DNA of 36,580 bases from a virus. The DNA is taken from the IMG/VR virus record IMGVR_UViG_3300048904_000094, positions 1-36,580 of that record. One strand, written 5' to 3'. This document shows positions 20,711 to 24,599 of the stretch, piece by piece (positions within the stretch are counted from its first letter, which is position 1; each line of letters starts with the position of its first letter). The position numbers and the translations under genes are program-made. The notes beneath the pieces are model-generated. The model made no database searches. It was not told the origin of the DNA and was given only the letters and a program-made list of their open reading frames with translations.

Positions 20711-20783
20711 TGGAGCGGGCGGAGGGAATCGAACCCTCTGTGTACACCTTGGAAGGGTGTTTGCCTGCCTCAGGCACGCACGC
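20711..20783 (-). tRNA. tRNA-Gly(TCC)-like gene with a compact D-arm, possibly degenerate
   Basis: Reading the minus strand, a T-arm GAGGG-TTCGATT-CCCTC (20738-20722), acceptor 3' strand CGCCCGC, discriminator T and encoded CCA (to 20711) are textbook. The anticodon arm ACACC-CTTCCAA-GGTGT (20760-20744) gives anticodon TCC, glycine, with T33 and A37, and a 5-base variable loop follows. The 5' acceptor strand GCGTGCG pairs at six of seven positions. The D region is odd: only three or four D-stem pairs (TGCC/GGCA) with a 7-base loop containing GG, leaving one or no bases for positions 8-9. The element is 73 nt with CCA, slightly short. It may be functional, a decaying tRNA, or a tRNA mimic. Confidence 0.6.
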
Positions 20784-21977: not shown

Positions 21978-22865
21978 TTACTTAAGTTGGTAACGCATGG
22001 GTATTGCACTTCTGTTGTCCAAATACTGTTGAGATGCGGGTTCAAACCAAAAGCCAAACCGCCCTTCAAACTCTCCATTGCGCTGCTTTTCGCAAATCAA
22101 ATTTGCATTAAACATAGCCGTTTCATCGTCCTCAGCCTTTTTATCTCGCCAAACGATAAAGACGTTATCTACCTGATCCGTGATTGCGCCAGCCCCCTTA
22201 ATATCGAATTTTCCAGGTGCTTTATGCTCACTCTCGCCTTTGCGAACGTGGTGAACCAAGTGAACGTGTACATTGTGTGCATGAGCAAATGCGCATAGCT
22301 CATTCACAAAATCCTTCTGTGCGTTGTAATCGTCCTCTCCCTTCACACATTTCATCAGACTATCGATGACGAAATGCTCAATTCCAAAATTCTTCTTTGC
22401 GTACCGCATAACTGCGATAACCTTACGCCACTCTGCTGCTCCGATATAGTCATACAGCCATAGCCTGTCATCAGACCATTGAGCCATACGATTCAGAAAC
22501 TCAATGCTTGGCTTACTATCCCCATATGCTTGACGACTCATGCGCTGCATTTGACGCACAGGCTTCATTTCGAAAGATGCCACCATGACGCGCTGGCCCT
22601 GTTGACAAAGATCCAGCGTCACTTGAGACAGGAGCATGCTTTTCCCGTGTCCGTTGACGCCAGCCCATAAGGATACTTCAGCAGGTCGAAAATGGACTCT
22701 TCCATGCGTCTTAGTCCAGAGCATAGTCGGAGCCTTAGCTTCTGGAGTTTCAGAATGAAATGAGTCAATCGTTTCTTGCAGCCAATGTGATGCTGGGAAA
22801 ACGGAGTGCTTCTCCGTCTCTTCCATGTATTGCGAAAAATCAATATCATCAGGAATGATGTTCAT
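21978..22865 (-). CDS. DnaB-type replicative helicase (helicase domain only)
   Basis: 295 residues with a RecA-like motor: Walker A GVNGHGKS at 69-76, VMVASFEMKPVRQMQRMSRQ (motif H1a region), a Walker B-like HFVIDSLMK, then LVHHVRKGESEHKAPGKFD and GAGAITDQVDNVFIVWRDK as in DnaB/Twinkle-like proteins. It is shorter than host DnaB and has no primase or large N-terminal domain. It probably unwinds DNA 5'-3' at the fork or loads host replication proteins. The start overlaps the upstream stop by one base (TAATG), tying it to the two preceding replication-region genes. Confidence 0.82.
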   Translation of the reverse strand: MNIIPDDIDFSQYMEETEKHSVFPASHWLQETIDSFHSETPEAKAPTMLWTKTHGRVHFRPAEVSLWAGVNGHGKSMLLSQVTLDLCQQGQRVMVASFEMKPVRQMQRMSRQAYGDSKPSIEFLNRMAQWSDDRLWLYDYIGAAEWRKVIAVMRYAKKNFGIEHFVIDSLMKCVKGEDDYNAQKDFVNELCAFAHAHNVHVHLVHHVRKGESEHKAPGKFDIKGAGAITDQVDNVFIVWRDKKAEDDETAMFNANLICEKQRNGEFEGRFGFWFEPASQQYLDNRSAIPMRYQLK

Positions 22866-23293: not shown

Positions 23294-24039
23294 AAAACCT
23301 GCTCCCTACGTGGGATCTTCACCAATTCAGGCTTTTGCCCCCCACGCTTAATCGAGAGTTGATCCCATTTCGCCCTAAGCTTTGCTGGAGACAGGATATT
23401 GCTTCGCCAGAATGAATCGTTCATAGCCCATTGAAACAATTCGCACATTTCCCGATGTGTTCTGTTGTCCCTTTCCCGCATAAGCCTTATTTCGTTTGCC
23501 CAACTATTCCAGTTCGGATCGATTGCAGAAGGGCAGACCTTCAGCTTGCAATCAAAAATCCACTTCGCTGCGACGTAGTCCTCATCCGAAGGTTTTGCCT
23601 TCAAGGCGCTAGCCGACAAGGTTTTATTCTTCTCTTCTCTAGTCAACTTTTTGTCCGCTTCGTTTGCGGACAGATTGCGGACAGATTCTGGACTATTTCT
23701 CTCGTTCCTTTTCCGTTTTTGATCCTCTGCACGACGCTTGCCAGACTTCCCGTTATGTTCATCAAACTCAGGCAGGATAAGGGCTTCTTCGCCGTCGCAT
23801 GCTAGCCAACCCACTGCAATCATTGCATCTGCAAAGCCAGTCCAACCGATCACATGGTCAAGAGTTTCGGGAGTGTAACCAGCGAGCCGCCCATCAACCG
23901 AGTGCGTGTCGAACACACTCCAAACCGCATGCAGTCCACCAATTGCGCGAAATTTGTCCGATTTGGTTGCGGACAAAATGCGGACAACTTTCGGATGCGT
24001 TTGCAGATCGAGGCGCATCTTGATCCAGTCGCCAGCCAT
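23290..24039 (-). CDS. Phage replication initiator-like protein (lambda O position)
   Basis: 249 residues. The N-terminal domain (DWIKMRLDLQTHPKVVRILS, AIGGLHAVWSVFDTHSVDGR, MIAVGWLACDGEEALILPEF) is the winged-helix type found in phage replication proteins. A Lys/Arg/Asn-rich linker (QKRKRNERNSPESVRNLSAN) follows. The C-terminal part (WIFDCKLKVCPSAIDPNWNS, CELFQWAMNDSFWRSNILSP) resembles DnaT/O-type domains that contact helicase. Two copies of a repeat module occur inside the gene, one in each domain. GAGGTGAAG precedes the ATG, which overlaps the upstream stop. It probably opens the origin and hands over to the helicase encoded two genes on. Confidence 0.72.
   Translation of the reverse strand: MAGDWIKMRLDLQTHPKVVRILSATKSDKFRAIGGLHAVWSVFDTHSVDGRLAGYTPETLDHVIGWTGFADAMIAVGWLACDGEEALILPEFDEHNGKSGKRRAEDQKRKRNERNSPESVRNLSANEADKKLTREEKNKTLSASALKAKPSDEDYVAAKWIFDCKLKVCPSAIDPNWNSWANEIRLMRERDNRTHREMCELFQWAMNDSFWRSNILSPAKLRAKWDQLSIKRGGQKPELVKIPRREQVL
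23650..23685. repeat. Iteron-like module B inside the initiator gene
   Basis: TTTGTCCGC (23650-23658) faces two direct copies of GCGGACAGA starting at 23666 and 23677, 11 bases apart. The same three sites in the same spacing occur 303 bases away (module A). Candidate binding sites for the initiator, hence origin. Confidence 0.65.
23953..23987. repeat. Iteron-like module A inside the initiator gene
   Basis: TTTGTCCG (23953-23960) faces GCGGACAA at 23969 and GCGGACAA at 23980. Distances between GTCCG and the first and second GCGGACA (13 and 11 bases) match module B exactly. The encoded peptides also match (VRILSATKSDK versus VRNLSANEADK). Confidence 0.65.
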
Positions 24040-24218
24040 TACTTCACCTCTGAAGATTCATGTTTTGCCTGCTCGTCGTTAAGAAAGCGAGCCTCTTCCT
24101 GTGCTAAGTCTTCAGACTCGCAGCAACCGACAGAGCTATGAACATTGGTTCCAGGGACTTTGTAGAGAACGTGGTATAGGCTATCAAACGGGCCTGCCAC
24201 AATAAAACGCTGGGTCAT
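24039..24218 (-). CDS. 59-residue protein upstream of the initiator
   Basis: Starts MTQRFIVAGPFDSLYHVLYK and ends in an acidic, helical stretch (CCESEDLAQEEARFLNDEQA). The stop TAA overlaps the initiator ATG by one base. AAGGAAC precedes the ATG, and a strongly structured leader (24237-24366) lies 18 bases further upstream. The FIVAGPFD...YHVLYKVP opening looks like a small beta-hairpin domain; no family is recognised. Confidence 0.65.
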   Translation of the reverse strand: MTQRFIVAGPFDSLYHVLYKVPGTNVHSSVGCCESEDLAQEEARFLNDEQAKHESSEVK

Positions 24219-24236
24219 TTTTGTTCCTTTTCCAGA

Positions 24237-24366
24237 CGCATGAGGCTGGGTTCTTGGCGGAACCCTGCAATCTGGTCAGGGGGATTATCTTTTGAAAATC
24301 CACCCAGCCTCATGCGCCCCAGATGTTGCAGTAATCCTCACTCGATCCGCCAAGATTTTTGTGAGG
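24237..24366 (-). ncRNA. Structured leader RNA candidate (nested stems plus pseudoknot)
   Basis: In minus-strand RNA: P1 CCTCAC/GTGAGG (24366-24361 with 24341-24336) presents TCTTGGCGGA (24355-24346) in its loop. P2 is a 15-bp perfect stem CGCATGAGGCTGGGT (24316-24302) with ACCCAGCCTCATGCG (24251-24237). Inside P2 are P3 GGATT/AATCC and P4 CCCTG/CAGGG. The 10 bases TCCGCCAAGA (24261-24252), immediately before the 3' arm of P2, complement the P1 loop exactly and would make a pseudoknot. An alternative hairpin GGGTTC-CGCCAA-GAACCC (24265-24248) excludes P4 and the inner end of P2. No convincing gene lies here. It ends 18 bases before the start codon at 24218. Confidence 0.6.
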
Positions 24367-24388
24367 TGCTTAGGCATCATCGCATTGC

Positions 24389-24410
24389 GCGATAACACGA
24401 CTATTATCGC
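24389..24410. other. Hairpin GCGATAA / TTATCGC
   Basis: A 7-bp perfect inverted repeat with an 8-base loop between the end of the 51-residue gene and the structured leader. There is no T tract on either side, so it is not a canonical terminator; it may be part of the same structured RNA or a protein site. Confidence 0.45.
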
Positions 24411-24443
24411 TCAGAAATCAATTCCGGCCAAGAAATTTTGCAA

Positions 24444-24599
24444 CTACCATAAACGTAGTTGTTGCTCTGACGTGAGCGCCCATACAGCAACTACTGGTAT
24501 CCAGCAAGCTAGTGCTAGTAGCCATCCCATGATGCGAGGCCAGGAACGCCGACGTTCAATGCGATAGCATGTATGTGGGTAGCCATGGAATGCTTTCAT
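24444..24599 (-). CDS. 51-residue membrane protein after NinG
   Basis: MKAFHGYPHTCYRIERRRSW is a basic N-terminal segment, followed by one membrane span (GWLLALACWIPVVAVWAL) and a short tail. The positive-inside rule predicts a cytoplasmic N-terminus. It starts two bases after the NinG stop. Its stop lies in a small hairpin (CAACTAC/GTAGTTG at 24441-24461). Function unknown. Confidence 0.6.
   Translation of the reverse strand: MKAFHGYPHTCYRIERRRSWPRIMGWLLALACWIPVVAVWALTSEQQLRLW

Follow-up and report, generated by a model that had tools for sequence, protein, structure and literature searches.

A double-pseudoknotted RNA in the leader of phage replication genes, a probable cis-acting 5'UTR element

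The window, the whole stretch of 36,580 nucleotides of the IMG/VR virus record IMGVR_UViG_3300048904_000094 analysed here, carries on its minus strand a structured RNA of ~160-170 nt, modelled at 24226-24395 with covariance model R1, in the leader of the replication genes. The best reading of the sequence comparisons is that it belongs to a previously undescribed phage 5'UTR RNA family, and we consider it probable that it represents a new cis-acting element of phage replication genes. A structured RNA with a possible pseudoknot had been proposed here by a sequence-only reading; this proposal, with a true pseudoknot, is strongly supported. From 5' to 3', the promoter is followed after 6-7 nt by P0, UGCCUAAGCA, P1 with P4a in its loop, AUUACUGCAA, P3a, P2a, the hairpin H and P5 with P3b in its loop, and subsequently by a U, P4b, P2b, UGGAAAGG and the AUG, thus the RNA occupies the entire 5'UTR. 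Features of the RNA and the adjoining genes, all on the minus strand, are given below.

24403-24431, minus strand: predicted promoter, -35 TTGGCC (24431-24426), 17-bp spacer, -10 GATAAT (24408-24403)
24226-24395, minus strand: whole RNA, 5'UTR element spanning predicted transcription start through Shine-Dalgarno region; R1 score 194.3 bits in the window
24377-24395, minus strand: P0, 7-bp 5' hairpin (24395-24389/24383-24377), loop GCAAU
24336-24366, minus strand: P1, 6-bp hairpin (24366-24361/24341-24336), 19-nt loop containing P4a
24346-24355, minus strand: P4a, pseudoknot strand inside the P1 loop, UCUUGGCGGA, from covariation
24319-24324, minus strand: P3a, strand of the second pseudoknot, AUCUGG, immediately 5' of P2a, from complementarity to the P5 loop
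24302-24318, minus strand: P2a, 5' arm of the 16-17-bp stem, from covariation
24282-24301, minus strand: H, variable hairpin immediately 3' of P2a, 4-5 bp in all homologs despite differing sequence and length
24263-24281, minus strand: P5, 5-bp hairpin CCCUG/CAGGG (conserved as CCCYG/CRGGG), loop containing P3b
24270-24275, minus strand: P3b, partner of P3a inside the P5 loop, CCAGAU, from complementarity to P3a
24252-24261, minus strand: P4b, partner of P4a, immediately 5' of P2b, UCCGCCAAGA, from covariation
24235-24251, minus strand: P2b, 3' arm of P2, its 3' end 16 nt from the AUG in the window
24216-24234, minus strand: UGGAAAAGG, Shine-Dalgarno region and first-gene AUG; UGGAA, then a purine-rich run, directly 3' of P2b in all homologs
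24039-24218, minus strand: 59-residue ORF, first gene after the RNA, 40-41% identical to the ORFs of L015 and L017
23290-24039, minus strand: replication initiator (O-like / DnaD-like), PHROG 2509, E = 1.5e-56
21978-22865, minus strand: DnaB-like helicase, PHROG 239/19, Pfam DnaB_C

The minus strand folds at -80 kcal/mol, compared with -58.9 +/- 4.3 in dinucleotide shuffles (z = -4.9, beating 200 of 200), and the weaker value of the plus strand (z = -3.45) is expected because the stems are shared between strands. The P1 pairing of CCTCAC with GTGAGG was located in the 6-bp hairpin listed above, and the perfect 15-bp P2 (24302-24316/24237-24251) was found to be extendable to 17 bp (24318-24302/24251-24235). 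The two hairpins predicted within P2 correspond to H (24301-24297/24286-24282) and P5 (24281-24277/24267-24263), and the pairing of the P1 loop (24355-24346) with 24261-24252, here P4, is real, forming a true pseudoknot with strong support from covariation. A second pseudoknot, P3, which was absent from the sequence-only reading, pairs the P5 loop with the strand preceding P2a. The pseudoknots are quasi-symmetric, as each ties a hairpin loop to the strand immediately 5' of one P2 arm, and the comparison of predicted pairings shows that the two loop-to-strand pseudoknots clamp both ends of the 16-17-bp P2. The conserved unpaired stretches are UGCCUAAGCA, AUUACUGCAA and AAAA.

Covariation was checked in the relatives, where the arms do not diverge without compensation and every arm covaries. 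In alignment A5, standard pairs occupy 99.6% of the cells of P0, P1, P4 and P2 taken together, a value that falls to 35-43% when partners are slid by 1-3 columns, and 13 pairs are changed on both sides. The covariation score is 0.40 versus 0.15 in shuffles, and 0 of 500 shuffles reach 0.40, although such counts are not probabilities, the sequences being related. P0 is 100% paired across seven distinct sequences, with both sides changed in two pairs and an invariant GCAA[U/G] loop, P1 is likewise 100% paired, with three of six pairs changed on both sides and four stem versions, and P2 is paired in 99.1% of cells, with both sides changed in six pairs. P4 forms 10 of 10 pairs in every homolog, in three matched versions (..CGGA, ..CAGA, ..AGGA) and with one G-U; its covariation is independent of the alignment fit, since the model behind the alignment contains nested helices only and lacks P4. 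P3, P5 and H were counted by hand, their loops being unaligned. Six sequence versions of P3 each match their own P5 loop with 6-7 contiguous pairs (in L387 7 of 8 pairs, with a single mismatch), whereas cross pairing between versions mostly gives 3-5 pairs; the background of six contiguous pairs is 28 of 976 windows. P5 is CCCUG/CAGGG in the window, L015 and L387 and CCCCG/CGGGG in L017, L407, L416 and L420, that is, one pair changed on both sides, and it appears in the nested folds of most homologs. G-U pairs occur in P0, in P1 of L017, in P2, and in P4 of L420; these would become A-C mismatches on the plus strand and thus suit only an RNA transcribed from the minus strand.

The sequence-only reading had further proposed a possible switch between two exclusive folds through a competing 6-bp hairpin (24248-24265). 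This hairpin exists on paper only and the switch is unsupported, because the invariant GGGUUC is explained by P5 and P4 and there is no covariation specific to the competing hairpin; in GGGUUC/GAACCC, P5 takes the GGG as its 3' strand, and P4b and P2b account for the remainder. A lower P3 stem (CUG/CRG) was replaced by P5, which also covaries. An HDV-like ribozyme was rejected as well: the strand order P3a-P2a-H-P3b-P2b is similar, but there are zero nucleotides between P4b and P2b, and P2 has 17 bp.

The RNA was found in at least nine IMG/VR loci besides the window (L015, L017, L019, L020, L387, L407, L411, L416, L420), with one copy per homolog record. Together with the window these comprise seven distinct RNAs, all from uncultured viruses, with L019 and L020 carrying the same RNA as L017, and L411 the same as L387. 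L015, L017, L019 and L020, which have the same leader, were reached through IMG/VR relatives of the window's initiator gene, L387 and L407 by a pseudoknot descriptor (P1, P4, P2) over the fetched sequence, and L411, L416 and L420 by conserved-core patterns. R1, built from four sequences with nested helices only, scored 127-171 bits (E <= 1.3e-33) on L387, L407, L411 and L416, which were outside model building, and over ~2.7 Mb it yielded nothing convincing beyond the homologs. With the P1/P4/P2 descriptor, a P2-like stem of at least 17 bp was detected in 7.0 Mb on both strands only in the homologs and in one repeat-rich locus (L229). Among partial covariance-model matches, that in L333 proved on inspection to be due to chance and those in L320, L358 and L400 were weak (14.7 bits, E about 0.1); 42 further stretches gave no additional homolog by covariance model. 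Neither a covariance-model search of three small proteobacterial samples that overlap (369, 385 and 398 genomes, under 1,152 once duplicates are discounted) nor blastn against phage and plasmid records returned a convincing match, the former returning none at all. Genomes were scanned once, with a single exact motif (AAGCACC...), a pattern that L416- and L420-type variants escape. Pattern matches to the P2 arm alone, to the 5' motif (among the matches listed) and to GGATTACTGCAA were mostly due to chance. In Rfam 15, only the tRNA-Gly of the window reaches the gathering threshold, and permissive searches of the window stretch and six homolog loci returned tRNAs and otherwise sub-threshold matches, over the RNA a chance match of 12.7 bits. 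Literature searches of incomplete coverage returned no description of this RNA.

A consensus scan of 23.9-25.3 kb found the promoter listed above as the only sigma70-like site. TTGnnn-N17-nATAAT (CAAAAT in L416) lies at an equal distance, 6-7 nt 5' of P0, in all homologs; the -35 is weak and in most relatives falls under the scan threshold. A 7-bp hairpin at 24389-24410 had been proposed as a further part of the structure. The inverted repeat is present in the DNA, but it is not part of the RNA and is absent from relatives: with 24410-24404 as its 5' arm it reaches into the predicted -10 box and therefore lies upstream of the likely transcript, and the conserved 5' hairpin at the predicted transcription start is P0. 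Most homologs also carry a GCAAAA-N4-5-CTTGnG element that overlaps the -35 region (24403-24450 in the window and the corresponding upstream regions) and may be an activator binding site. The promoter regions of L420 (2850-2970) and the window (24395-24510) are nearly identical, and since their RNA stems differ and their initiators are unrelated, a mosaic boundary falls at the RNA or close to it.

The genes behind the RNA vary. In the window, L015, L017, L019 and L020, the RNA is followed by a gene of the 59-aa family and the O-like initiator, in L407 by a 58-aa gene and a different initiator, in L416 by a 56-aa gene and a DUF1376 initiator, and in L387, L411 and L420 directly by a DUF1376 initiator. 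The 59-residue ORF has relatives in L407 and L416 and is missing in L387, L411 and L420. Proteins of 56-61 residues with the pattern FIVVGP..H..Y..PGT..S...LN lie between the RNA and the initiator in the window, L015, L407, L416 and L017; the presence or absence of this family is independent of the RNA, and no Pfam or PHROG match was obtained for it, the 59-residue ORF of the window included. Among 80 relatives of the window's initiator, the RNA was found only in L015, L017, L019 and L020, thus its association with this initiator is not obligate. NinG is common to most records, whereas the window's portal protein was found in one of nine (several of these are fragments; L015, L017 and L411 come from 33-36-kb records), which indicates that the RNA is part of a replication/recombination cassette in phages with different virions. 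Between the initiators of L017 and L019/L020, and between those of the window and L015, the N-terminal half is shared and the C-terminal domains differ although the RNA ahead of them is the same, a pattern suggesting that the cassette recombines frequently. Within the initiator gene, 0.25-0.75 kb downstream of the RNA, the window carries iteron-like TGTCCGC/GCGGACA repeats (23639-23703 and 23953-23995), a candidate replication origin with a lambda-O-like layout. A tRNA-Gly(TCC) gene (20711-20783) lies between the replication and packaging genes, and L420 has two similarly placed tRNA matches.

While initiators, first genes and virion genes differ, the RNA always ends next to the first replication gene's ribosome-binding site, with a gap of 11-16 nt between P2b and the AUG in all homologs, independent of the gene behind. 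This placement at a fixed distance speaks for a leader that acts in cis, and control of replication-gene expression is, judged from position, the best reading. The RNA would act in cis on the mRNA of the replication operon: its compact fold would form while the RNA emerges and would then set the use of the adjoining ribosome-binding site and the lifetime of the mRNA. A route to altered translation is not visible from the predicted fold, in which the Shine-Dalgarno region is unsequestered. Any signal would be a factor of the host or one shared by these phages, and probably not the initiator itself, because the initiators behind the RNA come from different families. It is also conceivable, though rather unlikely, that the element belongs to a new class of sensing RNAs, riboswitch-like or responding to a host factor, that gate phage DNA replication; a ligand or host factor would then decide on the use of the adjoining ribosome-binding site, whichever initiator gene follows, with the two kissing-type pseudoknots clamping P2 at both ends. 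Riboswitches and ribosomal-protein leaders are likewise compact, covarying, pseudoknotted 5'UTR elements with conserved unpaired nucleotides, whereas for this RNA there is no Rfam 15 match, and neither a ligand nor an expression platform nor a terminator can be seen.

Since it heads a transcript with ~24 kb of same-strand genes downstream, the RNA would also suit a role as a processive antiterminator that stays bound to RNA polymerase as nascent leader and allows read-through of the long operon, as does putRNA of HK022; there, putL comes shortly after PL and does not depend on a phage protein (PMC9378689). We consider this unlikely. Both are structured phage RNAs at the transcript start, putRNA acting without a dedicated phage protein; however, putRNA consists of ~70 nt with two stem-loops and is present in two copies in HK022 (PMC9378689), while this RNA is ~165 nt long, double-pseudoknotted and found once per record. 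No terminator-like site is present on the minus strand in 17-24.2 kb, and numbers elsewhere are at shuffle level. Moreover, antitermination, which in the HK022 case works through the beta' zinc domain of RNA polymerase, does not require a fixed gap to the start codon, to which putRNA, unlike this RNA, is not tied. An intrinsic terminator or attenuator was also not found, as 23.9-25.3 kb contains no terminator-like site and P2b is followed by UGGAAAAGG with no U run.

The position next to the start codon would also fit an RNA that is processed out of the leader and works in trans, for example as an infection-time decoy for a host protein or RNA. With its elaborate fold, its conserved unpaired stretches and a 5' hairpin at +1, it resembles a self-standing RNA, and it occurs in phages with differing virion genes. 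Yet its 3' end has no terminator, it is fused in every case to the ribosome-binding site that precedes the first replication gene, and in the homologs it is never found away from a replication initiator, so we regard a trans-acting product as quite unlikely.

Autoregulation would mean that a protein encoded in the downstream operon attaches to the pseudoknot and thereby represses translation of its own mRNA. T4 gp32 is a precedent, its binding site being a pseudoknot in the leader ahead of gene 32 (PMC3014915). That pseudoknot, built of two coaxial stems and located 67 nt before the start codon, is where gp32 binding nucleates; few pseudoknotted phage mRNA leaders are known, and according to a 2010 review it may be the sole viral pseudoknot in translational autoregulation (PMC3014915). 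Here too, a pseudoknot lies in a phage mRNA leader upstream of a DNA-replication gene. In contrast to T4, this RNA has two pseudoknots and at least six helices directly at the ribosome-binding site, and the 59-aa ORF is absent in three homologs and the initiator families differ while the RNA core is unchanged. With differing first genes and initiators, the operons have no downstream protein that all of them share, which makes autoregulation decidedly improbable.

A plasmid-like switch of the IncI/IncB repZ type, where a pseudoknot activates the initiator unless an antisense RNA to the hairpin loop intervenes, follows the same logic of parts, with an initiator mRNA leader and a hairpin loop pairing near the initiator. 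IncI-alpha/IncB repZ likewise has an initiator-leader pseudoknot formed from a UUGG-containing hairpin loop, and the window's loop contains UUGGCG, the loop motif named for ColIb-P9 in a title cited in PMC10724649. The loop does pair with a downstream leader strand, the 10-bp P4 of all homologs. However, the homologs have UUGGC(G/A) or, as in L017, UUGGAG, so that UUGG alone is conserved, and no conserved antisense promoter across the P1 loop was found in the seven sequences by consensus scan. Leader-peptide control was rejected, as the short ORF MPKHxSKILxD has no start codon in L015 and L416 and its stop position varies in others. Compared with repZ, this RNA shows no conserved antisense promoter and no conserved leader peptide, and the initiator start lies outside the pseudoknot; such a switch is very unlikely. 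Taken together, the negative results for antisense promoter, leader peptide, terminator and second copy argue, at the level of sequence, against IncI-type, attenuation and put-type schemes. A part of the origin, as a cruciform or primer RNA, is hardly credible despite the iteron-like repeats downstream inside the initiator gene, as G-U pairs and pseudoknot covariation suit an RNA made from one strand rather than a DNA cruciform, and a primer RNA would not be expected to be fused to a start codon.

T4 gene 32, repZ and HK022 putRNA are the nearest functional analogues, and the RNA shares only general features with them. It is more complex than many riboswitches and has been retained ahead of replication genes despite differing initiators and virion proteins. 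If the RNA controls these genes, there would be a shared RNA step in the start of phage DNA replication, and the conserved unpaired nucleotides would be direct targets for finding the sensed factor.
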